From an uncultured Barnesiella sp. (GTDB lineage Bacteria; Bacteroidota; Bacteroidia; Bacteroidales; Barnesiellaceae_A), in the NCBI GenBank assembly GCA_944321085.1, contig CALUJY010000003.1, forward strand, positions 62,001 through 126,000: a stretch of DNA of 64,000 nucleotides, written 5' to 3'. The notes under the pieces were generated by a model that was not told the DNA's origin, searched no databases, and worked only from the letters and a program-made list of their open reading frames with translations. A program made the position numbers and the translations under genes. Below are positions 48,684-64,000 of this stretch, one piece after another (position 1 is the first letter of the stretch; every line of letters begins with the position of its first letter).

Positions 48684-50240
48684 ATGTATCGTAGTAAAAT
48701 TAATTTATTCTCTCCCATTGGTATTTTGCTGGCTTGCACTCTTGCCGGATGTGAAGTACAAGAAGAAAAGAGTGGCGAATTTGACGCATATTACAAAGAT
48801 GTGCCGTTCGAGACCATACCGGTGGAGCGTCCCGTGTTTAATGATTATACCGTGTCGGTAACCGACTTTGGAGCCGTAGGCGATGGTATTGCCGATGATA
48901 CCGAAGCGATAAATGCCGCCATTACCGCCGTGTCGGACAAAGGCGGCGGCAGGGTGGTTATACCTGCCGGAATATGGTATGTGGGCCCGATAGAACTCAA
49001 AAGCAATGTAGAGTTGCATGCCCGTCGCAATGCGTTGGTCATCTTCAACGATGACCCCGAAGCCTATCCTATCATAGAGACTTCGTTCGAGGGGTTGAAT
49101 ACACGCCGTTGCACATCGCCTATCTGGGCACGCAATGCCGAGAATATAGCCTTGACGGGTGAGGGCGTTTATGACGGAGCCGGCGACAGCTGGCGCTTTG
49201 TGCGTCGCGAGAAGGTGACCGGCCCGCAGTGGGAAGAATTGCTGTCGCGTCCCGGATGCTATGTGGATGGCGACCTTTGGTATCCGAGCAAAGAGTCGTA
49301 TGAAGGACACCGCATTTGCGATGCCTTCAACAATCCGCAAGGCTTGCAGAGCGACGAGGAGTGGGAGGCGATACGCCATTGGCTGCGTCCTGTGATGCTG
49401 AGTTTCGTAGAATGCCGCAATGTTGTGATAGAGGATGTCACGTTGCGTAATTCTCCGGCGTGGATGTTGCACCCTTTGATGTGCGAAAACGTGATTATAA
49501 AGAATGTGAAGATATTCAACCCGTGGTATTCGCAAAACGGCGATGCCCTCGATGTGGAGTCGTGCAACCGCGTGCTTGTGGCCGATTGCCTCTTCGATGC
49601 CGGCGATGACGGCATCTGCATCAAGTCGGGAAAAGATGCCGATGGCCGCGAGCGTGCCATGCCTTGCAGTCATGTGGTCGTACGCAACACCCAAGTGCTG
49701 CACGGGCATGGAGGTTTTGTCGTAGGTAGCGAAATGTCGGGCGGAGTGAATCATATTTACGTAGAAAATTGTACCTTTACGGGCACCGATGTCGGCTTGC
49801 GCTTCAAGAGCACTCGCGGGCGCGGAGGTGTGGTAGAGGATATCTATATCGAGAATATAAATATGTGCGACATACCCACCGATGCACTGACGTTTAATCT
49901 CTATTACAGCGGCAAGTCGGCGACGGAAGACGACGGAAGCGGTATAAAAGGCGTCGTAGAGGAGCCTGTGACCGAAGAGACGCCTGAGTTTAGGAACATA
50001 TATATCAAAAACATAAAATGCCGCAATGCAAATAGGGCGATGTATTTCCACGGATTGCCCGAGATGCCATTGAATAACATCGTCATAGAAGATGTTGACA
50101 TTACGGCAAGCCAAAGCGGGCGGTTCGCTTACAGCGACAGCATCACCATGCGTCGCGTGCGCATCAAAGACGCATCTGCCGGGTTTACATTCAGTAATTG
50201 CAACGCGGTAGATACCGTTGGAATAGAATATATAAAATAA
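48684..50240 (+). CDS. Polygalacturonase (GH28), lipoprotein
   Basis: This 518-residue enzyme hydrolyses alpha-1,4-galacturonan. The N-terminus is a lipoprotein signal with lipobox LAGC (Cys23), so it is probably anchored to a membrane facing the periplasm or the surface. The GH28 catalytic set is complete: N-x-D (NGDALD, Asp287/Asp290), DD at 308-309 (GDDGICIKSG), His342 in GHGGFVVGSE and the substrate-binding R-F-K near 373-375. The start SVTDFGAVGDGIADDTEAINAAI is typical of pectin-type beta-helices. It leads the operon with uxaB, uxaA and uxaC; the next gene begins 31 bases later. Confidence 0.93.
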   Translation: MYRSKINLFSPIGILLACTLAGCEVQEEKSGEFDAYYKDVPFETIPVERPVFNDYTVSVTDFGAVGDGIADDTEAINAAITAVSDKGGGRVVIPAGIWYVGPIELKSNVELHARRNALVIFNDDPEAYPIIETSFEGLNTRRCTSPIWARNAENIALTGEGVYDGAGDSWRFVRREKVTGPQWEELLSRPGCYVDGDLWYPSKESYEGHRICDAFNNPQGLQSDEEWEAIRHWLRPVMLSFVECRNVVIEDVTLRNSPAWMLHPLMCENVIIKNVKIFNPWYSQNGDALDVESCNRVLVADCLFDAGDDGICIKSGKDADGRERAMPCSHVVVRNTQVLHGHGGFVVGSEMSGGVNHIYVENCTFTGTDVGLRFKSTRGRGGVVEDIYIENINMCDIPTDALTFNLYYSGKSATEDDGSGIKGVVEEPVTEETPEFRNIYIKNIKCRNANRAMYFHGLPEMPLNNIVIEDVDITASQSGRFAYSDSITMRRVRIKDASAGFTFSNCNAVDTVGIEYIK

Positions 50241-50271
50241 AAACTATCATATAAACTAAAATCATAATACA

Positions 50272-51714
50272 ATGAAACCATTAAACAAAGAGACGGCATC
50301 TAAGACCGTGCGCCCCGAGCGTATTATTCAATTTGGCGAAGGTAACTTCTTGCGTGCTTTCGTAGATTGGATTATTTTTAACATGGACGAAAAGACCGAC
50401 TTCAACAGCAGTGTTGTAGTCGTTCAACCGATAGACCGTGGCATGGTAGATATGCTCAACGCACAAGATTGCCTCTATCACGTCAATCTTCAAGGTATAG
50501 ACAAGGGCGAGTCGGTAAACAGCCTTACTAAAATAGACGTTATAAGCCGTGCGTTGAATCCCTACACCCAGAACGCCGAGTTTATGGCACTTGCAGACCA
50601 ACCCGAGATGCGTTTCGTTATCTCCAATACGACCGAGGCCGGCATTACGTTCGACCCCTCTTGCAAGCTCGACGATGCACCCGCTTCGTCATATCCCGGC
50701 AAGTTGACACAGTTGCTCTACCGTCGCTACAAAACTTTCAATGGCGACATGAGCAAGGGTCTTATCATCTTCCCCTGTGAGCTTATCTTCCTGAACGGTC
50801 ACAAGCTGAAAGAGACTATTTACCAATACATAGAGCTGTGGAACCTCGGTAACGACTTCAAAGAGTGGTTCGAGAAGGCTTGCGGCGTATATGCAACGTT
50901 GGTAGACCGCATCGTACCGGGATTCCCCCGCAAAGATATCGACGCAATCAAAGAGAAATTGCAATACGACGACAACCTGGTAGTACAAGCCGAGATATTC
51001 CACCTCTGGGTAATTGAGGCTCCGCAAGAGGTAGCCAAAGAGTTCCCTGCCGACAAAGCCGGTTTGAACGTATTGTTCGTACCTTCGGAAGAGCCCTATC
51101 ACGAGCGTAAAGTGACGCTGCTCAACGGCCCGCACACCGTATTGTCGCCCGTGGCATATCTCTCGGGTATCAATATCGTACGCGACGCTTGCCAGCACCC
51201 CGTTGTAGGACGCTATATCCATCGTGTGATGTTCGACGAGCTGTTGGAGACTCTCAACCTCCCGAAAGAGGAGCTCGTGAAGTTTGCCAACGATGTGCTC
51301 GACCGCTTCAACAACCCGTTCGTCGACCATCAGGTAACCTCTATCATGCTCAACTCTTTCCCCAAATATCAGACCCGCGACCTCCCCGGCTTGAAGGTTT
51401 ACCTGCAACGCAAGGGCGAGCTGCCCAAAGGCTTGGTTCTCGGTCTGGCCGCCATCATTACCTATTACAAAGGCGGTGTGCGCGAAGACGGAGCCGAAAT
51501 CGTTCCCAACGACTCGCAAGAGATTATGGACCTGCTCAAAGAGTTGTGGGCTACCGGCGATACCCGCAAGGTGGCAGAGGGCGTGTTGGCCGCAGAGTTT
51601 ATCTGGGGTGAGAACCTCAACAACATACCCGGGCTTGCCGACGCTGTGAAAGGTTACCTCGACTCGATACAGGAGAAAGGCATGCTCGAAACAGTAAAAG
51701 CTATTTTGGACTAA
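50272..51714 (+). CDS. uxaB: Tagaturonate reductase (altronate oxidoreductase)
   Basis: UxaB reduces D-tagaturonate to D-altronate with NADH, the second step of galacturonate catabolism. The 480-residue protein belongs to the mannitol-dehydrogenase-like long-chain group: N-terminal RIIQFGEGNFLRAFVDWII (Rossmann motif), the conserved VKNRI-like segment replaced here by RKVTLLNGPHTVLSPVAYLSG (Lys/Asn/His catalytic region), and a C-terminal helical domain. It is preceded by the polygalacturonase gene and followed by uxaA after 19 bases. Confidence 0.93.
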   Translation: MKPLNKETASKTVRPERIIQFGEGNFLRAFVDWIIFNMDEKTDFNSSVVVVQPIDRGMVDMLNAQDCLYHVNLQGIDKGESVNSLTKIDVISRALNPYTQNAEFMALADQPEMRFVISNTTEAGITFDPSCKLDDAPASSYPGKLTQLLYRRYKTFNGDMSKGLIIFPCELIFLNGHKLKETIYQYIELWNLGNDFKEWFEKACGVYATLVDRIVPGFPRKDIDAIKEKLQYDDNLVVQAEIFHLWVIEAPQEVAKEFPADKAGLNVLFVPSEEPYHERKVTLLNGPHTVLSPVAYLSGINIVRDACQHPVVGRYIHRVMFDELLETLNLPKEELVKFANDVLDRFNNPFVDHQVTSIMLNSFPKYQTRDLPGLKVYLQRKGELPKGLVLGLAAIITYYKGGVREDGAEIVPNDSQEIMDLLKELWATGDTRKVAEGVLAAEFIWGENLNNIPGLADAVKGYLDSIQEKGMLETVKAILD

Positions 51715-51733
51715 TACAGCCCGTTACAACAAC

Positions 51734-53221
51734 ATGAATACATATATAAAGATAAATCCTGCCGATAACGTAGTAGTGGCTATCGACCCGCTTAAAGCGG
51801 GCGATACCATTACCGTCGACGGCGAAGATATAACCCTGCGCAGCGATGTGCCCGCCGGTCACAAGGTAGCGCTCAAAGAGTTTGCCGAGGGCGACAATAT
51901 CATCAAGTATGGTTGTCCCATAGGCCACGCACGCATGGCGATAGCCAAGGGCGACTGGGTGAACGAAAAGAACATAAAGACCAATCTCGAAGGTCTGCTC
52001 GATTATACCTACAATCCCGTAGATACTACGCTCGACATACCTCACAGAGAGCTCACCTTCGACGGTTATCGTCGCAAAAACGGCGATGTGGGTGTGCGCA
52101 ACGAAATATGGATTATCCCTACGGTAGGCTGCGTAAACGGGGTGGTCAATCAGTTGGCCGAGTCGCTCCGTGCCGAGACCGGCAGCAAGGGCGTCGATGC
52201 CATCGTAGCTTTCCCACACAACTACGGCTGTTCGCAACTGGGTAATGACCATGAGAATACGCGCAAGGTATTGCGCGACATGTGCCTGCATCCCAATGCC
52301 GGAGCCGTGTTGGTCGTAGGATTGGGTTGCGAAAACAACCAGCCCGATGCCTTCCGTGAAATGCTGGGCGACTACGATACCGAACGCATCCGCTTCATGG
52401 TGACCCAGCGCGTGCACGACGAGCATGAGGAGGGTATGAAGATATTGCGCGAATTGTATGCCATCGCATCGCAGGACAAACGCGAGAGCGTGCCTTTGAG
52501 CGAGTTGCGCGTGGGCTTGAAATGCGGCGGTTCCGACGGTTTCTCGGGCATTACGGCCAATCCCATGCTGGGCGTCTTCTCAGACTTCCTCATCGCCCAA
52601 GGCGGAACGTCGGTGCTCACCGAGGTTCCCGAGATGTTTGGCGCCGAGACCCAGCTGATGAATCGTTGCGATACGGTAGAGCTCTTCGATAAAACCGTAC
52701 ATCTTATCAACGATTTCAAGGCATACTTTATGGCCAACAAGCAGCCCATCTACGAGAATCCCTCGCCCGGAAACAAAGCCGGCGGTATATCGACCCTCGA
52801 AGAGAAGTCGCTCGGTTGCACACAGAAGTGCGGCAAATCGGGTGTAAAAGATGTGCTGATGTATGGCGACCGTCTCAAAACCCGTGGCCTCAACCTCCTG
52901 AGTGCCCCCGGCAACGACCTTGTGGCTGCCACGGCACTGGCCTCGGCAGGCTGCCACATGGTACTCTTCACGACAGGCCGCGGCACACCCTTCGGCACCT
53001 ACGTCCCCACGGTGAAAGTATCTACCAATACCAACCTCTTTAACAACAAGCCCGGCTGGATAGACTTCAATGCCGGCACGCTGGTAGAGGGCGAGAGCAT
53101 GGAGTCGCTGAGCAACCGCTTCATCGACTATATCATCGAAGTGGCAAGCGGCCGCTTCACCAACAACGAACGCAAGGGCTATCACGAGATAGCCATCTTC
53201 AAGACAGGCGTTACGTTGTGA
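51734..53221 (+). CDS. uxaA: Altronate dehydratase
   Basis: UxaA dehydrates D-altronate to 2-keto-3-deoxygluconate. The 495-residue protein has an N-terminal SAF domain (about 5-85, DVPAGHKVALKEFAEGDNIIKYGCPIGHA) and the large catalytic domain with GYRRKNGDVGVRNEIWIIPTVGCVN, SQLGNDHENTRKVL, GCENNQPDAFREML and LKCGGSDGFSGITANPMLG. The signature FTTGRGTPFGTYVPTVKVSTN is close to the C-terminus. A hairpin lies between uxaA and uxaC. Genes for KDG kinase and aldolase are not in this window. Confidence 0.95.
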   Translation: MNTYIKINPADNVVVAIDPLKAGDTITVDGEDITLRSDVPAGHKVALKEFAEGDNIIKYGCPIGHARMAIAKGDWVNEKNIKTNLEGLLDYTYNPVDTTLDIPHRELTFDGYRRKNGDVGVRNEIWIIPTVGCVNGVVNQLAESLRAETGSKGVDAIVAFPHNYGCSQLGNDHENTRKVLRDMCLHPNAGAVLVVGLGCENNQPDAFREMLGDYDTERIRFMVTQRVHDEHEEGMKILRELYAIASQDKRESVPLSELRVGLKCGGSDGFSGITANPMLGVFSDFLIAQGGTSVLTEVPEMFGAETQLMNRCDTVELFDKTVHLINDFKAYFMANKQPIYENPSPGNKAGGISTLEEKSLGCTQKCGKSGVKDVLMYGDRLKTRGLNLLSAPGNDLVAATALASAGCHMVLFTTGRGTPFGTYVPTVKVSTNTNLFNNKPGWIDFNAGTLVEGESMESLSNRFIDYIIEVASGRFTNNERKGYHEIAIFKTGVTL

Positions 53222-53241
53222 TGCAAATCATTGAATAATCC

Positions 53242-53268
53242 GGCATGCAGCCCGAAAGGCTGCATGCC
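53242..53268 (+). terminator. Intra-operon hairpin between uxaA and uxaC
   Basis: Arms GGCATGCAGCC (53242-53252) and GGCTGCATGCC (53258-53268) form a perfect 11-bp stem with a CGAAA loop. There is no U-tract after it, so it may reduce read-through or protect the upstream messenger, rather than terminate fully. Confidence 0.5.
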
Positions 53269-53294
53269 GTCAAACATTAAAAAAGAGACAGAAT

Positions 53295-54701
53295 ATGAAA
53301 CCTTTTATGGACGAAAACTTTTTGCTGCAAACAGAGACTGCACAAAAGTTATACCACGAACATGCGGCCAAAATGCCTATCATAGACTACCACTGCCATC
53401 TTGTCCCTAAAATGGTAGCAGACGATTACCGCTTCCGTTCCATCACCGAGCTTTGGTTGGGTGGCGACCATTACAAATGGCGTGCCATGCGTTCCAACGG
53501 CGTCGACGAGCGTTACTGCACCGGCACCGATACGACCGACTGGGAGAAGTTCGAGAAATGGGCCGAGACCGTACCCTATACGCTGCGCAACCCCCTCTAT
53601 CACTGGACACACCTCGAACTGAAAACGGCTTTCGGTATCAACAAGATACTCAAACCCGAGACTGCTCGTGAAATCTTCGATGAGTGCAACGAGAAGTTGG
53701 CTCAACCCGGTTACACAGCCCGTGGATTTATGCGCCGTTACAACGTAGAGTGCGTATGTACCACCGACGACCCCGTAGATAGCCTCGAATATCACAAAGC
53801 TACACGCGAGAGCGGTTTCGAGATAAAAATGCTCCCCACATGGCGTCCCGACAAGGCCATGGCCGTAGAGGTACCTGCCGAATTCCGTGCATACGTAGAG
53901 AAACTTGCCGAGGTAAGCGGCGTGACCATCAGCACCTTCGACGATATGATCGAGGCCCTGCGTCGTCGTCACAAATTCTTCGAGGAGATGGGTTGCCGCC
54001 TGAGCGACCACGGTATCGAAGAGTTCTATGCCGAAGAGTATACCGATGCCGAGATACGCGCCATATTCAACAAAGTATATGGAGGCAAGGAGCTTACGCA
54101 CGAAGAAATTCTCAAATTCAAGTCGGCCATGCTCGTAGCCTTTGGCGAGATGGATTGGGAAACCGGTTGGACACAACAATTTCACTACGGCGCCATCCGC
54201 AACAACAACACGTTGATGTACAAGAAACTCGGTCCCGATACCGGTTTCGACTCGATAGGCGAGTTTACAACCGCCAAAGCTATGTCGAAATACCTCGACC
54301 GCCTCAACAGCGAGGGCAAGCTCACCAAGACGATATTGTATAATCTCAATCCGTCGGCCAACGAAGTGATAGCTACCATGTTGGGTAATTTCCAAGACGG
54401 CAGCGTGCCGGGCAAGATACAATTCGGCTCGGGCTGGTGGTTCCTCGACCAGAAAGACGGTATGGAGAAGCAGATGAATGCCCTCTCGTTGCTGGGCTTG
54501 CTGAGCCGCTTTGTGGGTATGCTCACCGACTCGCGCAGCTTCCTCTCTTATCCGCGTCACGAGTACTTCCGCCGTACCCTTTGCAACCTCTTGGGTCGCG
54601 ATATGGAGAATGGCGAAATACCCGCTTCGGAACTCGACTTCGTAGGTCGTATGGTAGAAGACATCTGCTACAACAACGCAAAACGTTTCTTCAACTTCTA
54701 A
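53295..54701 (+). CDS. uxaC: Glucuronate (uronate) isomerase
   Basis: UxaC isomerises D-galacturonate to D-tagaturonate (and D-glucuronate to D-fructuronate), the entry step of the pathway. The 468-residue protein shows family motifs KMPIIDYHCHLVPKMVADDYRF near the N-terminus, including the H-x-H metal site (HCH), DYHKWRAMRSNGV-like DHYKWRAMRSNGVDE, TTDDPVDSLEYH, and the C-terminal FGSGWWFLDQKDGMEKQMNALSLLGLLSRFVGMLTDSRSFLSYPRHEYFRR. It ends the galacturonate operon, which is closed by a hairpin about 50 bases later. Confidence 0.96.
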   Translation: MKPFMDENFLLQTETAQKLYHEHAAKMPIIDYHCHLVPKMVADDYRFRSITELWLGGDHYKWRAMRSNGVDERYCTGTDTTDWEKFEKWAETVPYTLRNPLYHWTHLELKTAFGINKILKPETAREIFDECNEKLAQPGYTARGFMRRYNVECVCTTDDPVDSLEYHKATRESGFEIKMLPTWRPDKAMAVEVPAEFRAYVEKLAEVSGVTISTFDDMIEALRRRHKFFEEMGCRLSDHGIEEFYAEEYTDAEIRAIFNKVYGGKELTHEEILKFKSAMLVAFGEMDWETGWTQQFHYGAIRNNNTLMYKKLGPDTGFDSIGEFTTAKAMSKYLDRLNSEGKLTKTILYNLNPSANEVIATMLGNFQDGSVPGKIQFGSGWWFLDQKDGMEKQMNALSLLGLLSRFVGMLTDSRSFLSYPRHEYFRRTLCNLLGRDMENGEIPASELDFVGRMVEDICYNNAKRFFNF

Positions 54702-54749
54702 GTCTCGCATAACCCCAATCTACATTCCTGCTCGTAGGCAGGAAATAAA

Positions 54750-54795
54750 ACAGGGAGCTGTTCACGGTGTCGTGGGCAGCTCCCGCTTGTTTATA
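54750..54795 (+). terminator. Terminator after uxaC
   Basis: Arms GGGAGCTG (54753-54760) and CAGCTCCC (54777-54784) form an 8-bp GC-rich stem, extended by AAACA/TTGTTT flanks with a mismatch, followed by GCTTGTTTATAT. It separates the uxa operon from the CRISPR locus and faces the tracrRNA terminator. Confidence 0.7.
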
Positions 54796-54859
54796 TGCAA
54801 CTGCTGTTGGTGAAGCGATTTATATAGCCATGCTCTTGCTTTGTTGCTGTTGCCATATT

Positions 54860-54956
54860 AAAAAAAGGAGGAGGAACTTCCCGAAAAATCGGAGTTCCCC
54901 CAACTCAATGTTTTCACAACGGAATAATCCTTATTGTGATTTGATGAATTTTTATG
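54860..54956 (-). ncRNA. tracrRNA of the type II-C CRISPR system
   Basis: The plus-strand sequence TTGTGATTTGATGAATTTTT (54934-54953) is identical to 20 consecutive bases of the reverse-complemented CRISPR repeat, so the transcript running leftward is its anti-repeat. On the minus strand the anti-repeat is followed by a short nexus-like hairpin (AAGGATTATTCCG) and a terminator hairpin (GGAACT/AGTTCC outer stem at 54873-54878 and 54893-54898, CCGA/TCGG inner stem with AAAA loop) ending in seven T (54860-54866). The RNA is about 95 nt. It would guide Cas9 and allow RNase III processing of crRNA. It is divergent from cas9. The 5' end is inferred from the promoter, not measured. Confidence 0.92.
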
Positions 54957-54959
54957 TTA

Positions 54960-54991
54960 CAAAATTAGACGATATTTTTTATAAATACAAA
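54960..54991 (-). promoter_or_regulatory. tracrRNA promoter
   Basis: On the minus strand TTTG (54988-54991), a 20-base spacer and TAATTTTG (54960-54967) give a full Bacteroidota promoter. The expected start, a few bases downstream, falls at the first base of the anti-repeat. The spacing is the same as in the tRNA-Asp promoter. Confidence 0.85.
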
Positions 54992-55010
54992 TGTTTGGAA
55001 TAAAAATTTG

Positions 55011-55018
55011 TATATTTG
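55011..55018 (+). promoter_or_regulatory. Putative -7 box of cas9
   Basis: TATATTTG fits TAnnTTTG, 41 bases before the cas9 ATG. No -33 TTG at the expected distance is seen. The cas9 and tracrRNA promoters are back to back within about 60 bases. Confidence 0.5.
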
Positions 55019-55059
55019 ATGAAGAAATATTTGAATAATCATTTTTTGAAAAGCATGCC

Positions 55060-58000
55060 ATGAAACGAATTTTAGGTTTAGACTTAGGAGCTAACAGTAT
55101 AGGGTGGGCTGTGGTAAACGAGGCCGAGAATAGTGATGAGAAATCGTCTATTATAAGATTGGGGGTAAGAGTAAATCCCTTGACGGTAGATGAAAAAAAT
55201 AATTTTGAGAGTGGAAAGTCTGTTACGACACAAGCCGATAGGAGAACCAATCGCTCGGCGCGGCGTAATTTGCAGCGTTATAAGTTACGTCGTGAATGTC
55301 TGCGTGAAGTTTTGATAGAGGGAGGCGCGATTACTTCCGAAACGGTGTGTGCAGAGCAAGGCAAAGGTTCTACTCACGAAACATATCGTCTGAGGGCTAT
55401 GGCCGTAACCGAGCCGGTAACCTTAGAGGAATTTGCGAGGATATTGTTTGCCATCAACAAGAAGCGGGGCTACAAAAGCAATCGTAAGGCTAATAAAGAA
55501 GATGGTGTGGCCATAGATAGCATGTCGGTAGCAAAAGAATTATACGATAGAGAAATAACTCCGGGACAGTATTGTTATGAGTTGTTGCAAAAAGGAAAAA
55601 AGAAATTGCCCGATTTCTACCGTTCAGATTTACAAGTAGAATTGGATAAGATATGGTCGTATCAACGTTGTTTCTATCCCGATATTTTCACCGACCAATT
55701 GCAAGAGCAACTCGTCGGTAAGTCGCAGCAGCAATCGGTAGCCATTATGACCAAGTGCGGTATAAATCTTGCCGAGAATAAAGGGAAAGAGAAAAAGCTG
55801 CAATATTACAAGTGGCGAAGCGAAGCAGTATGTAACAAGCTCGATATAGGCGAAGTTGCGTTGGTAATATGTATGTTGAATGGCGAAATAAATGCTTCGA
55901 GTGGTTATTTGGGCAATATAGGTGACCGGAGTAAGAAACTCTATTTCAACCGACAGACAATCGGGCAGTATTTGTATAGTCTGTTGTGTCAGAGCAGGCA
56001 CAACTCTTTGAAGAATCTTGTATTCTACCGTCAGGATTATTTAGATGAGTTTGAGGCAATATGGCAAGAACAGAGTAAGTATCATCCCGAACTCACGTAT
56101 GCGTTGAAAAAGAAGGTGCGCGACACAATTATTTTCTATCAACGCCCGCTGAAAAGTGCAAAGGGATTGGTAAGTATATGTGAGCTGGAAGGCCATATCC
56201 AAGAGATAGATAAAGATGGCAAGAAAGTGCTGCGGACGGTAGGACCGAAGGTATCCCCCAAGTCGTCGCCTATATTTCAGGAGTTTAAGATATGGCAACG
56301 TCTGAATGATACCCGTCTTACCGAGATAGTGCGACATCCCATTACGCACCGTATAGAACGTATAGTGCGAGAACTGTCGATAGAGGAGAAAAATATATTG
56401 TGTACAGAACTCTCTATCGTAGGTGGGCTTGAAAAAGGAGACGTGTTGAGGTTGCTTTTCGGAACTGCTGAGAACTATGATTTGAACTTCAAAGAATACG
56501 AAGGCAATAAGACATTTAGCGCCTTGTTTGCCAAGTATCGACAAATTGCCGAGCTGGCAGGGGGGAATATGTCGAAATGTAAAACAGCCCGAGAGAAGAT
56601 AGAAGCAGTAGAGAGAGTTTTCGATACGTGTAATTACGAGACACAACTTCTTCACTTTGACTCTTCGTTGCCTTCTCACGATTGCTATTTGCAACCGGCT
56701 TATATGTTGTGGCATCTGTTATACTCTTATGAAGGTGACAATTCCAAGTCGGGATTAGAAGGGTTGATAAGAAAGATTATGGAATTGACAAGGATGGAGC
56801 GAGAGTATGCTGCAATGATTGCAGGGGTCTCGTTCGAGTCGGATTACAGTAGCCTGAGTAACAAGGCTATGCTGAAAATACTGCCTTTTATGAAAGATGG
56901 CAACGATTACGGCGTGGCTTGCTGCTATGCCGGATACCGACATTCCAAAAATTCATTGACCAAGGAAGAGAACGAGAATAGGCCACTCAAAACACACCTC
57001 GATATATTGCCCCGCAATGCGTTGCGTAATCCGGTGGTTGAGAAGATACTAAACCAGATGGTACACGTTGTGAATGACGTTATAGATAAGTATGGCCCAT
57101 TGGATGAGATACGTGTAGAGATGGCACGTGAGATAAAAAGCTCGGCACAAGAGCGTGAGGACAAGTATAAAGCCATGAACGACGCGGCTCACAAGCACGA
57201 GGCGATACGAAAGATATTACGTGAAGAGTTTCATATTGAGCATCCGAGCCGTAACGATATTATACGATATAAATTGTATGAAGAGCTCGAAATGAATGGG
57301 CATAAGACATTATATACCGATACTTATATATCGCGTGAGAGTATTTTCAGTAAAGAGTTCGACATCGAGCATATTATACCGAAAGCGCGCTTGTTTGACG
57401 ACTCTTTCTCAAACAAGACATTAGAGGTGCGCAAAGCGAATATAGAGAAGGGCGATATGACAGCCTATGACTATGTAGCCACGTTGGGTGCCGAGGCTTT
57501 GGCAGCCTATGAAGGGCGGGTCGATTATTTGTATAAAAAGAAAAAAATATCGGAGGGTAAATGGAAGAAGCTGAGAATGAAGCAGGCCGATATTCCTGAT
57601 GACTTTATCGACAGGGACTTACGCAACACGCAGTACATAGCCCGATATGCGATAGGCATGTTGCGCGATGTTGTAAGAGTCGTTGTTCCTACGGTTGGAG
57701 CAATAACAAGCCGATTGCGTGAAGACTGGCAGCTGGTAGATGTGATGAAAGAGCTCAATCGCAATAAATACGAGCGATTGGGGCTGGTAGAGTATTATCG
57801 CGATAGAGATGGTCGTCTATTGTGGCAAATAAAAGATTGGAGCAAGCGCAACGACCATCGCCATCATGCCATGGATGCTCTGACGGTCGCTTTTACAAAG
57901 ATGTCTTATGTGCAATATCTCAACAATCTGAATGCACGTAGCGATAAGTCGTCGAGCATATATGCCATAGAAAAGGCCGAACTAAGTCGGTCGGGTTATG

Positions 58001-59178
58001 GCGGACAACTGCGTTTCAATCCTCCTATCCCCGATTTTAGGCGAGAGGCTTTGCGGCACTTGCAAACGGTGTTAGTATCGATTAAAGCTAAAAACAAGGT
58101 AGTTACACTCAATCTTAATAAAACAAAACGCAAGGGCAGTAATGAAGGGTGCATGCAACTGACACCCCGTGGCAGCCTGCATAAAGAGACGGTATATGGT
58201 ATGCGACGACAGGTCTCGGTGATAACCAAGACGATAGGTGCTACGTTTACTGCCGATGTGATACAGCGAGTGACAAACAGACGGTATCGCGAAGCGTTAC
58301 TGCAACGGTTGGCACAGTTCGACGGCGATGCCAAGAAGGCATTTACCGGCAAAAACCGTCTCGATAAGAACCCCGTATATTGCGATGAGGCTCATCGGCA
58401 AGTTGTTCCTATGGCAGTAAAGGTATTTACCTATGAGGTTATATATACTGTGCGCAAGAGTGTTGCCGATAAGTTGAATATTGAGAAGGTTGTTGATAGT
58501 GGCGTCAGAAAAAAATTACAAGAGCATATCGACAAATACGGCGAGGCCTCATTTTCTGACCTTGAAGCACATCCTATCTATCTTGATGAGGAGAAAGGGA
58601 TAACCATTAAAAAAGTTACGGTTAAAGGATTGAACAATGCTGTGCCTTTGCACGATAAATGCGACTATGCCGGTAGATATATTACCGACGCCGCCGGCCG
58701 CCGCATTCCTGCCGATTATGTAAGTACCGGAAACAACCATCATGTAGCTATTTTTAGAGATGCCGATGGCAAGTTGCAAGAACATGTCGTTTCTTTTATG
58801 GAGGCCGTAGCACGTTGCGTGCAAGGATTGCCGGTCGTAGATAAGGCATACAACAGAGAGGTAGGTTGGACATTCCTTTTCACCATGAAACAGAATGAAT
58901 ATTTCCTATTTCCCGATGAGGAGTCAGGGTTCAATCCCCAAGAAATAGACCTGTCAGACCCTGAAAATTATGCCCGTATTTCGCCGCATCTGTTCCGGGT
59001 GCAGAAGTTTACTACTAAATATTATGTATTCAGGCATCACTTAGAAACGACTATCGACGATGATAATAGGTTGCAAGATATTACATGGAAAAGAATAACG
59101 AATATGCAAGCCCTTGAAGGCATTGTAAAAGTGCGTATCAATCATATTGGTGAAATCGTACATGTAGGAGAAGAGTAG
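55060..59178 (+). CDS. cas9: CRISPR-associated endonuclease Cas9, type II-C
   Basis: Cas9 cuts DNA matching a crRNA spacer when bound to crRNA and tracrRNA. The 1372-residue protein has RuvC-I RILGLDLGANSIGWAVV (Asp8), an arginine-rich bridge helix (about 56-85, RRTNRSARRNLQRYKLRREC), a recognition lobe, RuvC-II IRVEMARE (Glu687), the HNH domain FDIEHIIPKARLFDD (His771, with Asn in FSNKTL and KANIEKGD), and RuvC-III HHAMDALTV (His936, Asp939). All catalytic residues are present, so it should be an active nuclease. It is much larger than the Neisseria II-C protein but normal for Bacteroidota. cas1 starts one base after the stop. No csn2 or cas4 is present. Confidence 0.98.
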   Translation: MKRILGLDLGANSIGWAVVNEAENSDEKSSIIRLGVRVNPLTVDEKNNFESGKSVTTQADRRTNRSARRNLQRYKLRRECLREVLIEGGAITSETVCAEQGKGSTHETYRLRAMAVTEPVTLEEFARILFAINKKRGYKSNRKANKEDGVAIDSMSVAKELYDREITPGQYCYELLQKGKKKLPDFYRSDLQVELDKIWSYQRCFYPDIFTDQLQEQLVGKSQQQSVAIMTKCGINLAENKGKEKKLQYYKWRSEAVCNKLDIGEVALVICMLNGEINASSGYLGNIGDRSKKLYFNRQTIGQYLYSLLCQSRHNSLKNLVFYRQDYLDEFEAIWQEQSKYHPELTYALKKKVRDTIIFYQRPLKSAKGLVSICELEGHIQEIDKDGKKVLRTVGPKVSPKSSPIFQEFKIWQRLNDTRLTEIVRHPITHRIERIVRELSIEEKNILCTELSIVGGLEKGDVLRLLFGTAENYDLNFKEYEGNKTFSALFAKYRQIAELAGGNMSKCKTAREKIEAVERVFDTCNYETQLLHFDSSLPSHDCYLQPAYMLWHLLYSYEGDNSKSGLEGLIRKIMELTRMEREYAAMIAGVSFESDYSSLSNKAMLKILPFMKDGNDYGVACCYAGYRHSKNSLTKEENENRPLKTHLDILPRNALRNPVVEKILNQMVHVVNDVIDKYGPLDEIRVEMAREIKSSAQEREDKYKAMNDAAHKHEAIRKILREEFHIEHPSRNDIIRYKLYEELEMNGHKTLYTDTYISRESIFSKEFDIEHIIPKARLFDDSFSNKTLEVRKANIEKGDMTAYDYVATLGAEALAAYEGRVDYLYKKKKISEGKWKKLRMKQADIPDDFIDRDLRNTQYIARYAIGMLRDVVRVVVPTVGAITSRLREDWQLVDVMKELNRNKYERLGLVEYYRDRDGRLLWQIKDWSKRNDHRHHAMDALTVAFTKMSYVQYLNNLNARSDKSSSIYAIEKAELSRSGYGGQLRFNPPIPDFRREALRHLQTVLVSIKAKNKVVTLNLNKTKRKGSNEGCMQLTPRGSLHKETVYGMRRQVSVITKTIGATFTADVIQRVTNRRYREALLQRLAQFDGDAKKAFTGKNRLDKNPVYCDEAHRQVVPMAVKVFTYEVIYTVRKSVADKLNIEKVVDSGVRKKLQEHIDKYGEASFSDLEAHPIYLDEEKGITIKKVTVKGLNNAVPLHDKCDYAGRYITDAAGRRIPADYVSTGNNHHVAIFRDADGKLQEHVVSFMEAVARCVQGLPVVDKAYNREVGWTFLFTMKQNEYFLFPDEESGFNPQEIDLSDPENYARISPHLFRVQKFTTKYYVFRHHLETTIDDDNRLQDITWKRITNMQALEGIVKVRINHIGEIVHVGEE

Positions 59179-59179
59179 T

Positions 59180-60465
<1,286 letters not shown>

Positions 60466-60466
60466 A

Positions 60467-60500
60467 ACAAATAAACCTGCCCGATGGCAGGTTTATTTGT
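60467..60500. terminator. Bidirectional hairpin between cas2 and the CRISPR array
   Basis: Arms ACAAATAAACCTGCC (60467-60481) and GGCAGGTTTATTTGT (60486-60500) form a perfect 15-bp stem with a CGAT loop, starting one base after the cas2 stop. The AT-rich outer arms give T-rich tracts on both strands. It could end cas transcription from the left and array transcription from the right. Confidence 0.8.
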
Positions 60501-60573
60501 ATTACATACGGTCGTTTTTTTTATTCTATTTCTTGTTGTAAGTTTCTGATGTGCAGCTGTATACATGCATTGT
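60501..60573. other. Probable CRISPR leader on the cas2 side
   Basis: This 73-base AT-rich stretch (with a run of eight T) separates the hairpin from the first perfect repeat. GCTGTAT at 60556-60562, 18 bases before the array, copies the first seven bases of the repeat and may be an integration-related motif or chance. No promoter reading into the array was found here on the plus strand. Confidence 0.55.
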
Positions 60574-61752
60574 GCTGTATGTAATCACATCAAAGATACA
60601 AAAATTCATCAAATCACAACATCTTCACCTACCAGCCCTGTACTTCCGCGCTGTATGTAATCACATCAAAGATACAAAAATTCATCAAATCACAACGATT
60701 TTTTCAGAACTCAAAATTTGTCCTTTGCTGTATGTAATCACATCAAAGATACAAAAATTCATCAAATCACAACGGCATGAGAGTTATTTCCGACAGCAAA
60801 ACAGCTGTATGTAATCACATCAAAGATACAAAAATTCATCAAATCACAACATCGCTCGGAGAGCCTGTAAAGGTAGGACGGCTGTATGTAATCACATCAA
60901 AGATACAAAAATTCATCAAATCACAACTTCCCTCATATAGACAATTCAAGCCCTATGCTGTATGTAATCACATCAAAGATACAAAAATTCATCAAATCAC
61001 AACGAATACGAAATTAGAGCGTTAAAGATGGCGGCTGTATGTAATCACATCAAAGATACAAAAATTCATCAAATCACAACCGTTGCGGTAAACATAATCA
61101 ATTCTTGCGTGCTGTATGTAATCACATCAAAGATACAAAAATTCATCAAATCACAACTTGACAACATCCTTGCTGCAATTTGCTCTTGCTGTATGTAATC
61201 ACATCAAAGATACAAAAATTCATCAAATCACAACTCATAATCTTATTTTATTAGTCGTTAAATGCTGTATGTAATCACATCAAAGATACAAAAATTCATC
61301 AAATCACAACCGACCGGGTGCAATACGTTGAGGGCAAAAGGCTGTATGTAATCACATCAAAGATACAAAAATTCATCAAATCACAACTGTAATCATTAAT
61401 TATTTGCTCGTCAATAGCTGTATGTAATCACATCAAAGATACAAAAATTCATCAAATCACAACCCCAGTGTGTTGATGTTTACATTTTCGGGCGCTGTAT
61501 GTAATCACATCAAAGATACAAAAATTCATCAAATCACAACTATCGGACAAAATTATATATCCCTTTTATGGCTGTATGTAATCACATCAAAGATACAAAA
61601 ATTCATCAAATCACAACACTTGAAGCATAGTATCGACATAGCTTTCAGCTGTATGTAATCACATCAAAGATACAAAAATTCATCAAATCACAACGATAAT
61701 GTCGAGAATATAGGTTGCAAGGCTGCTGTATGTAATCATATCAAAGATACAA
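60574..61752 (-). CRISPR. CRISPR array: 15 identical 47-nt repeats, one degenerate terminal repeat, 15 spacers
   Basis: On the plus strand the repeat begins GCTGTATGTAATCACATC and ends TTCATCAAATCACAAC. Fifteen copies are identical: they start at 60574, 60650, 60727, 60804, 60881, 60957, 61034, 61111, 61188, 61264, 61341, 61417, 61494, 61571 and 61648. Spacers are 29 or 30 nt. The last copy, 61725-61752, keeps only the first 28 bases with one C-to-T change. Strand is set to minus because the anti-repeat requires crRNA to read GTTGTGATTTGATG... Each repeat in that direction holds TTG-N18-TATCTTTG, a promoter match. Spacer targets could not be searched. Confidence 0.98.
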
Positions 61753-61779
61753 CATATTTGTTTACCCAAGTTGCGTATA

Positions 61780-62508
61780 TTACAGATTATACCGAGTTAC
61801 AAAGTTATTGGCAGCTGCGAGGGTGTCGATTTTACCTACGTCGAGCATTGCAAAGTCGTCAGGTTGGTATGCGGCGATGGTTTCGTTGTGCATGGCTTCT
61901 AAATAGAAGTCGATGATGGAGAACTTGTCGGGATAATCGGCCATGAGGGCGAAGATGCGTGGCGACACGAGGTGTATGCCGGCAAAGGCGTAGGGGTGTA
62001 GTGCTGTGGTGTCGATGCCCGGTGGACGTGTAGCGCCTGTGTTGACGTTGTGCCATCCGGCCAAACGGTTGTCGTTGTCGAAGAGAAGGTAGCGGCTGGT
62101 AGGGCGTTCGCTTACGACGACTTGCGCCAGACAATCGGGACGAAATGTTGCCGTGAAATGGTCGAGCGACAGGTTGGAGAGGATGTCGACGTTGTGTAGC
62201 AGTATGGGTTCGTCACCGGGGAATAGCGAGGCTGCGTGGCGTAGCCCGCCGCCGGTGTCGAGCAGCATATCGCTCTCGTCCGATATGTCGATGCGCATAT
62301 TGTAGTCGTGGTTGGCAAGGAAGTCGACGATTTGCCCTGCGTGATGGTGTACGTTGACTACGGCATGGGTGCAGCCTGCGGCGTGCAGCTTCGTGAGCAG
62401 ACGGTGCAATAAAGGAACGCCGCCCACGGGTACAAGGGCTTTGGGCCGGCGGTCGGTGAGCGGACGCAGACGGGTGCCTAATCCGGCGGCAAAAATCATG
62501 GCTCTCAT
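61780..62508 (-). CDS. murU: N-acetylmuramate-1-phosphate uridylyltransferase-like (MurU-type) nucleotidyltransferase
   Basis: This 242-residue sugar-1-phosphate nucleotidyltransferase has [27 protein letters not shown] (G-x-G-T-R-x2-P-x-T and Pro-Lys signature), TGGGLRHAA, and the metal-binding LLHNVDILS. The short length and the neighbour, an AmgK-like sugar kinase, point to MurU, which forms UDP-MurNAc from MurNAc-1-phosphate in peptidoglycan recycling. The ATG at 62508 overlaps the stop of the upstream kinase gene (ATGA), indicating translational coupling. Mannose-1-phosphate guanylyltransferase is the alternative, as annotation pipelines often call this group. Confidence 0.82.
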
Positions 62509-63950
62509 GGTGTGGTACGGGGTGGGTAGGTGTTTGTAATGTGTTGCTCGCGGTGTATAAGTCGCACTTCTATATCGGGATACTTTTCGTGCAGATGGCG
62601 AGCTAATGCTTGCGCCGAATATACCGAGCGGTGTCGGCCTCCGGTACATCCGAATGCAGCTTGCAGATGCGTAAATCCTCGTTTCAGATATTTCTCAACG
62701 GCAGCGTCTACCAAGGCGCAGGCGTGATTGATGAAGGGGAGTATCTCGCCATCGTCTTCGAGAAAACGTATCACGGCATCGTCCAGTCCTGTGAGGGTGG
62801 TATATTGGGCATATCGTCCGGGGTTGTGTATGGCGCGGCAGTCGAAAACGAATCCGCCTCCGTTGCCGCTTTCGTCGTCGGGGATACCCATGCGGTATGA
62901 GAAGCTGTACACGGTGACGCATAGTGTCGTGCGGGGTGTTGCAGGGGCAAAACGGGGCATGGACACCAGCTTGTCGAGTGTGGCTTTCAGGTAAGGGTAG
63001 TCGTCGGCAGCGCCGTCATGCAACTGTCGCCGCAGGCTCCCGATGGCTTGGCTTATGCTTTGCAGGAATAGCGACTTGCGTTCGTAATAGCCGCGGAATC
63101 CGTAGGCTCCCAAGACTTGCAAGGTGCGGAAGAGGACAAAGCGGGCAAGGTCGCGACGGAAAGCTGTGTTGTCGATGGCGATGCCTTTGGTTTGCAAGGC
63201 GGCAAGGTATTCGTTCAATAAGCGTTCGCGCAAGTCGTCGGGGTAGAGAGCGCGAGCCTGCCACAGGAACGAGGCAACGTCGTAGTGTATCGGTCCGCGA
63301 CGTCCACTCTGAAAGTCGATAAACCACGGTTTGCCATCTTTTGTCATGACGTTGCGGCTCTGGAAGTCGCGGTACATAAACCCGACCGGATGGGCTTCGA
63401 GCAACTGTCGTGACAACCGCTCGAAATCGTCTTGCAGACTGTTTTCGTCGTATTCCAAGCCCGATGCTTTGAGAAAGCAGTACTTGAAGTAGTTGAGGTC
63501 GAACATGATGGCACGTTCGTCGAATCGGCTCACCGGGTAGCACGTCGTATCGTAGTCGAGCCCCTTGTCGCCATCTATTTGCATGGCGGCAAGTTGTCTC
63601 ATCGTTTCGGCCAGCAGACGGTAAGCCTCATCGTCGTAGATTCCCGTGGTACGGCAGGTTGCCAAGCGGTCGTAGAGCGACAGGTCGCCCAAGTCGGTTT
63701 GTAAGTAAGCCATGCAGTCGTTGCTTACGGCTACAACTTGCGGTACGTTGAAACCTTTGGCAGCCAAGTGTCGCGACAGTGCAATGAAAGCGCGGTTTTC
63801 GTCGGCCGATGACCCCTGCACTCCTATCAACGTCCCGGTCGGCGACGTGAGCCTGTAATAGCGCCGTGGCGAGCCTGCGCCGGCAATAGGTTGCACGAGG
63901 GTCGCATCGTGCCCGGTGTATGACGAGTATAGTTGTTCTATGGTATTCAT
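62505..63950 (-). CDS. AmgK-like sugar kinase fused to a RapZ C-terminal domain
   Basis: This 481-residue protein joins two modules. Residues about 1-335 form an aminoglycoside-phosphotransferase-type kinase like AmgK, which phosphorylates MurNAc/GlcNAc at C1: [13 protein letters not shown] in the glycine-rich loop area, catalytic loop [12 protein letters not shown] (Tyr in place of the usual His before Arg-Asp) and metal-binding [11 protein letters not shown]. Residues about 345-475 match the RapZ C-terminal domain: [14 protein letters not shown] and [11 protein letters not shown]. In E. coli that domain binds glucosamine-6-phosphate and small RNAs. The Met at 63950 begins the conserved segment. 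Coupling to murU by ATGA overlap supports a cell-wall recycling role. Confidence 0.82.
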
Positions 63951-64000
63951 AGGTCGGTATGATATGCTGCCCATCATGGGGCGGCTGATTTTTGTTTTGC

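Follow-up and report, generated by a model that had tools for sequence, protein, structure and literature searches.

Predicted Bacteroidota-type promoters inside the repeats of a type II-C CRISPR array from an uncultured Barnesiella sp.

Are the spacers of a long-repeat CRISPR array in the Bacteroidota transcribed from one promoter outside the array, or does every spacer have a promoter of its own? The question is raised by a type II-C array in a 64,000-nt stretch of DNA from an uncultured Barnesiella sp. (order Bacteroidales), the whole of which is referred to as the window. The original prediction held that a promoter of the Bacteroidota type is embedded in each repeat of this array, and that interpretation is supported by the comparisons described below. 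Each full repeat would, with high probability, constitute a complete sigma-ABfr promoter with a start ~12 nt before every spacer, providing every spacer with its own primary transcript. Transcription of each spacer from its own predicted repeat promoter, and not from one promoter outside the array, is thus the likely answer.

The array, its direction and the sequence of its repeats

The array (60574..61752, crRNA sense on the minus strand) consists of 15 full 47-nt repeats and one truncated repeat, with spacers of 29-30 nt. It is located downstream of cas9 (55060..59178, plus strand; 1372 aa, TIGR01865 above cut-off), cas1 (59180..60112, plus strand; TIGR03639, type II, above cut-off) and cas2 (60133..60465, plus strand; TIGR01573 above cut-off). 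The type II-C assignment is supported by the presence of these three genes, by the lack of any other gene (e.g. csn2 or cas4) between cas9 and the array, and by a tracrRNA that has its anti-repeat nearby. The anti-repeat (54934..54953, minus strand) lies upstream of cas9 and is complementary to repeat positions 2-21; the crRNA strand is therefore the minus strand, which upholds the direction assumed originally. The tracrRNA body would continue to a T-run at about 54860. The cas genes and the crRNA strand are opposed, as in 110 of the 114 long-repeat loci (window counted).

Between cas2 and the array is a hairpin with a 15-bp stem (60467..60501, listed on the plus strand) that can form on either strand (z -5.6 and -5.4). 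It may separate or end two converging transcripts, although the terminator scan listed none at this site. No Rfam family scored above threshold within 50000-64000. On the other side, a gene for a MurU-like nucleotidyltransferase (61780..62508, minus strand) runs in the crRNA direction and ends 27 bp before the array, for which it is a possible source of read-through. This gene adjoins one for a protein with AmgK-like and RapZ-like parts (together 61780-63977, minus strand; all below curated cut-offs), and the pair heading toward the array perhaps serves cell-wall recycling.

Read in the crRNA sense, the 47-nt repeat is GTTGTGATTTGATGAATTTTTGTATCTTTGATGTGATTACATACAGC. The arrangement predicted for it, with TTG at positions 2-4 and TATCTTTG at positions 23-30, 18 nt apart, was found in 15 of 15 full repeats: the first of these has it at 61665..61693 on the minus strand (TTG 61691-61693, 18 nt, TATCTTTG 61665-61672), and the same TTG-N18-TATCTTTG recurs in 14 more repeats, as far as 60591-60619. 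TATCTTTG conforms to TAnnTTTG, given in the relevant passage of PMC7366714 as the -7 consensus of Bacteroidota sigma-ABfr promoters. A TTG is also present at N18, but it falls inside the tracrRNA-pairing part of the repeat, and its conservation is therefore uninformative on a role as the -33 element. The window has 17 exact matches to TTGN18TANNTTTG, and 15 of these are in the array, one per full repeat and all on the minus strand; 100 shuffled windows have a mean of 0.87 and a maximum of 4. Since 15 identical repeats amount to one observation copied, chance has to be judged across species. The plus-strand reading of the repeat had been said to contain no such element, and TTG-N18-TATCTTTG was indeed found on the crRNA strand only.

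The 16th, oldest ('extra') repeat (61725..61752, minus strand) retains positions 20-47 with one mismatch and has lost positions 1-19 including its own TTG, with TATCTTTG intact at 61742-61749. Every repeat, the truncated 16th among them, thus has the box on the crRNA strand, but the complete predicted promoter sequence, with a TTG of the repeat's own, is limited to the 15 full repeats, which corrects the original 'every repeat'. A TTG in the flank (61767..61769, minus strand), 17 nt upstream of the truncated repeat's box, is a possible substitute for the -33 element.

In the proposed mechanism, the host RNA polymerase with its primary sigma factor would bind each repeat, and the RNA would start near repeat position 35. 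After the last 12-13 nt of its own repeat and a 30-nt spacer, it would extend through the 5' half of the following repeat, pair there with the tracrRNA and be cut by RNase III. The start at position 35 follows from the placement of the -7 box at -12 to -5 relative to the start, as stated in the part of PMC9723704 consulted, and falls within the 34-38 originally proposed. The oldest repeat would need its promoter half only. Since its 5' half could yield only a spacer-less crRNA, an idea of PMC12080349 in the portion consulted, that half would be free, or even favoured, to be lost.

The use of the host's own divergent consensus was another element of the original prediction, and it is supported by the genome of the same organism, in which TTG-N18-21-TATCTTTG is ~10 times more frequent than its reversed control: TTGN18-21TATCTTTG has 130 sites (15 of them the array) vs 11 for the reversed pattern. 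The counts are 67 vs 5 for TATATTTG and 46 vs 18 for TATTTTTG, making TATCTTTG the commonest of the three boxes counted; by eye, ~10 of the 100 sites listed fall in one interspersed element. That element, of ~80 nt and ending in TTG-N20-TATCTTTG, was seen in host genome contigs L246, L247 and L251, apparently in tandem in L246. Upstream of genes in 80 loci, nearly all of the order, TAnnTTTG has a density of 1.96/kb vs 0.45 in shuffled and 0.26 in coding sequences, although these regions also have many occurrences on their other strand (111 vs 168). With CRISPR sequences masked, TATCTTTG (nn = TC) is the variant most enriched there, 12-fold over shuffles. If the box were strictly a promoter, its nn bases should be free to vary, yet TC was found in 53 of 64 repeat boxes vs 15 of 96 tracrRNA boxes. 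A second constraint on nn was considered and dropped, because TC also leads the enrichment upstream of genes and is the commonest of the three variants counted in the own genome. A 16S gene was sought in the assembly as a promoter yardstick, and none was found there.

The tracrRNA has a predicted promoter of the same kind (54960..54990, minus strand; TTG 54988-54990, 20 nt, TAATTTTG 54960-54967), the box of which begins 14 nt before the anti-repeat. The full box occurs in such predicted tracrRNA promoters in 82 of 105 loci, with a mode of 12 nt before the anti-repeat, as compared with 3 of 105 in a control window.

Conservation of the box in related repeats

For comparison across species, a Cas9 search was applied to 395 genomes of the phylum (65 over cut-off) and 393 genomes of the order (134 over cut-off). 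Of the 100 places whose surroundings were fetched, 65 represent 65 of the 134 order genomes with a match, and 35 come from elsewhere in the phylum; the best-scoring matches and long contigs had priority, so that the locus set is not random. Arrays were found in 91 of 157 sequences, short duplicates included, resulting in 81 loci once duplicates were dropped. A second set was obtained by a Cas9-alignment scan of named genomes, taking the best 80 of 531 relatives, 59 of which have arrays. Repeats were oriented by their conserved 5' end; the best anti-repeat match disagreed with this rule in 15 of 81 loci, which we judged to be stray repeats or weak matches, and for one 36-nt repeat (L060) the rule seems to give the wrong orientation. 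One locus (L071) was trimmed by hand.

The order is represented by 40 loci with long repeats, the window being one of them; TAnnTTTG is present in 33, and the other 7 are without a full box. Among distinct long II-C repeats of the order, it is located at positions 23-27 in 32 of 39 and is found in none on the other strand, as compared with a mean of 1.55 and a maximum of 8 in 2000 trials in which these 39 repeats were shuffled after position 17. The first 17 positions and the end of the repeat are conserved, as expected from tracrRNA pairing and from repeat ends, respectively; between them the TAnnTTTG box, preceded by a T-rich patch, is the strongest island, its columns having information contents of 1.1-2.0 bits and the three columns directly after it 0.08-0.40 bits. 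In 20 random-order subsets, each made up of 9-14 repeats with 3' tails below 50% identity, the full box is kept by 7-12 repeats. Pairing with the tracrRNA was considered as the reason for this conservation and rejected, since in 65 loci an unbroken duplex includes no more than 4 of the 8 box bases and stops short of the TTTG.

The second set shows the same distribution. Loci assigned to Bacteroidales by their titles (two of which read Bacteroidia only) have the full box in 29 of 33 cases, or 27 of 31 without repeats already counted. The other 24 loci include 3 with the full box and 19 that match 5 or more of its 6 fixed bases. Outside the order, the first set contains the full box in 2 of 10 long repeats from the class and in 2 of 7 from other classes; variants common outside the order are TATTTTTA, TATCTTTA, TATCTTAG and TAGCTTAG. 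Taken together, the 111 distinct long repeats comprise 66 with the full box and 96 with at least 5 of its bases (2.6 and 19.7 when shuffled), and the other strand has 1 full box. Conservation of TAnnTTTG across the II-C repeats of Bacteroidota, named originally as a check, is therefore seen in the long repeats of the order, but it becomes rarer outside the order and is absent from the 36-nt repeats of the order and class (0 of 12).

The inferred start is 10-13 nt from the repeat end in 41 of the 43 repeats that match the box at 5 or more of its 6 fixed bases. A pyrimidine-purine step at the expected start was considered as an additional signal and rejected as not robust: 36 of 64 repeats have it, as compared with a shuffle mean of 16.7, but among non-redundant tails the number falls to 11 of 26, a count reached by 278 of 5000 shuffles, and other offsets are equally good. 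Variants of internal repeats (10 of 1118) are too few to be informative and are biased by the exact-word array finder. One further locus (L189) is titled Candidatus Fibrimonadaceae, which we take to be Fibrobacterota; its Cas9 is 51% identical to that of the window, and its 45-nt repeats have TAAATTTA at the box position, pointing to transfer between phyla or to mis-binning.

Outside promoters, oldest repeats and competing explanations

The explanation that survives best after repeat-embedded promoters, although still an unlikely one, combines one long transcript from outside the array, e.g. by read-through from 61780-62508, with a role of TATCTTTG and the 3' half of the repeat as a signal for 5'-trimming of the crRNA. 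The co-directional gene ending 27 bp from the array would suit such a transcript, and a trimming signal would be kept in the first repeat too, but trimming leaves it unexplained that the word is the commonest host box, is the one most enriched upstream of genes and precedes the tracrRNA. The transcript from outside can be assessed by the position of TAnnTTTG in type II-C as compared with type I arrays of the order. Type I arrays can be oriented by the ATTGAAA end of their repeats, and this rule was applied to the 23 arrays found in 40 fetched cas3 loci. Their repeats, which are shorter and less A/T-rich than the long II-C repeats, contain the box in 0 of 23 on either strand. Within 200 nt upstream of the array, TAnnTTTG is present in 11 of 23 type I cases (shuffle mean 3.4, max 9), 8 of 23 having it at a distance of 57-58 nt from the first repeat, as expected of a leader promoter in a fixed place, whereas boxed II-C arrays have it in 8 of 48 (shuffle mean 4.4, max 10), no clear excess. 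These counts indicate that the box, where it can be placed, is in the leader of type I arrays and in the repeat of type II-C arrays.

An outside promoter was also considered for arrays without a full box and rejected, the counts (9 of 40, shuffle mean 4.1, max 10) providing no clear excess. The 36-nt repeats have the box in 0 of 12 cases in the order and class and in 3 of 12 in other classes. Ten loci of the 36-nt II-C class (L097-L102, L107, L111, L129 and L135) contain no TAnnTTTG, and in most of them the repeat finishes with GATATT, GATATACAAC or a related word that resembles a sigma-70 -10 box more closely. The 36-nt repeats of the order and class must have another route of expression.

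The oldest repeat, which in II-C arrays is at the upstream end, provides a further line of evidence. This analysis leaves out arrays that run off their contig on the 5' side, as well as L094, which contains a run of N. It covers 90 closed, distinct long arrays, 50 of which have an oldest repeat shortened at its 5' end. We considered the 43 of these in which the consensus has at least 5 of 6 box bases, leaving out the other 7; the truncation ends at or before the first box base in 41 of 43, as compared with 58% for uniform breakpoints (p = 2.8e-8). The breakpoint search requires a 3' piece scoring at least 9 and misses shorter remnants; the null ends 8 nt before the repeat end. The two exceptions pass the boundary by one base (L166) and by nine (L179), an earlier, smaller test gave 25 of 26, and the truncated repeat of the window agrees with the pattern. 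In 50 arrays with a full-box consensus, the terminal repeat has the box intact in 45 and the first 8 nt intact in 20. In truncated terminal repeats, the box is kept no better than the sequence that follows it; these data therefore locate the outer boundary of the part that is needed and not its core. A TTG at the right distance after truncation occurs in 12 of 40 terminal repeats vs 5.7 expected, a weak excess.

Some oldest repeats are altered by inserts. The terminal repeat of L066 has an element similar to the ~80-nt one of the host exactly at its TATCTTTG, and the same perhaps applies to L064; in L066, and perhaps L064, the inserted element may supply the box itself. The oldest repeats of L080, L081, L112, L152 and probably L173 are split or displaced by inserts, mostly G/C-rich, and three of them (L080, L112 and L152) have the missing 5' half complete at a distance of 29-65 nt on the outer side. 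The breakpoint counts are 39 of 41 without L064 and L066, and 34 of 36 without seven arrays judged to hold inserts.

The same repeats bear on a second explanation, somewhat less probable still, by which TATCTTTG is not a promoter but a DNA motif for Cas1-Cas2 during repeat copying. Repeats are integrase substrates, and the nearly fixed distance of the word from the 3' end (10-13 nt from the start to the end of the repeat in 41 of 43) would be natural for such a motif, but the oldest repeat lies away from cas2, where acquisition is unexpected, and it nevertheless keeps the box in 45 of 50 cases vs 20 of 50 for the first 8 nt. Insertion of new spacers next to cas2 is described for Riemerella in the portion of PMC6008519 consulted. 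Finally, a functionless match due to descent or A/T-rich composition deserves hardly any credence: repeats share ancestry and the 111 distinct long ones are not independent, but the box occurs in 32 of 39 vs 1.55 in shuffles, persists where the tails are less than 50% identical and is absent from the 23 type I repeats of the order, shorter and less A/T-rich as these are.

Relation to known type II-C systems

The embedded promoters predicted here have precedents, for which the comparison with sigma-70 phyla rests on literature. Within the Bacteroidota, Riemerella anatipestifer has a type II-C system with long repeats, given as 47 nt in PMC5006608 and being 46 nt in the strain included here (L206). 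The part of PMC5006608 consulted reports no potential promoter in the CRISPR1 repeats of this species, and leaders screened with the BDGP tool; the L206 repeat has TATCTTTG at positions 25-32. For Flavobacterium columnare (PMC8092290) and F. psychrophilum (PMC10309648), TTG has been proposed as a repeat-encoded promoter. As far as the available parts of these papers go, the proposals differ from ours in that they concern TTG alone, 33 or 35 bp before the spacer, with TAnnTTTG applied to cas9 and not to the repeat. The F. columnare repeat of 36 nt belongs to the length class found here to be without the box, and that of F. psychrophilum has 46 nt; eight RNA-seq reads toward the leader are mentioned for F. 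columnare in the same part of PMC8092290.

Loss within the oldest repeat has likewise been described: according to the portion of PMC12080349 consulted, the extra repeat of II-C arrays mutates mostly in its first 15 nt, and its authors suggest that the promoter must persist. Neither 'Bacteroid' nor 'Flavobacter' appears in the main text of that paper, and our analysis differs from it in mapping the retained part in Bacteroidota, where truncations end at the -7 box. Among the matches listed in the open-licence literature, as far as their text was available, no paper names a -7 box in Bacteroidota repeats, which leaves its absence from the literature unproven.

If the proposed mechanism is true, the making of crRNA in a major group of gut bacteria becomes clear in outline, with no leader promoter, one promoter per spacer and the use of the phylum's own sigma factor. 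It would correct the published statement on Riemerella, and add, for long-repeat arrays, the -7 box absent from the Flavobacterium proposals. The crRNA strand of most such arrays would be readable from sequence alone, and the frequent half-loss of the oldest repeat would be explained. It would also suggest that E. coli may not express such arrays, for which a different promoter should then be supplied in heterologous tests. More speculatively, and with the odds somewhat against it, the 46-48-nt II-C repeats of Bacteroidota could be viewed as self-contained cassettes that comprise a tracrRNA-pairing 5' half, a host-consensus promoter and ~12 nt transcribed first. Such a design would free the promoter from the spacer sequence, explain the length of these repeats over the 36-nt repeats of sigma-70 bacteria, and limit the phyla that can express a transferred array.

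The closest known system is the type II-C array of Campylobacter jejuni with its repeat-embedded crRNA promoters, described in the consulted part of PMC3656092, where Neisseria meningitidis is named as similar. It has in common with the arrays considered here the type II-C machinery and a promoter per repeat on the crRNA strand, predicted in our case; in C. jejuni the 3' end is produced by RNase III with tracrRNA. The C. jejuni promoter has an extended -10 box (GGTAAAAT) at the very end of the repeat and a measured start at spacer position 5, whereas the box considered here is of the Bacteroidota -7 type, has its end 16-17 nt away from that of the repeat in 32 of 43 cases, and would direct a start 8-13 nt inside the repeat, before the spacer (position 35 of 47 in the window). 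As compared with the C. jejuni start at spacer position 5, the product would thus have a longer 5' piece, which may need trimming. Repeat-embedded promoters as such are established for C. jejuni; the present analysis adds the Bacteroidota -7 box in the repeats.
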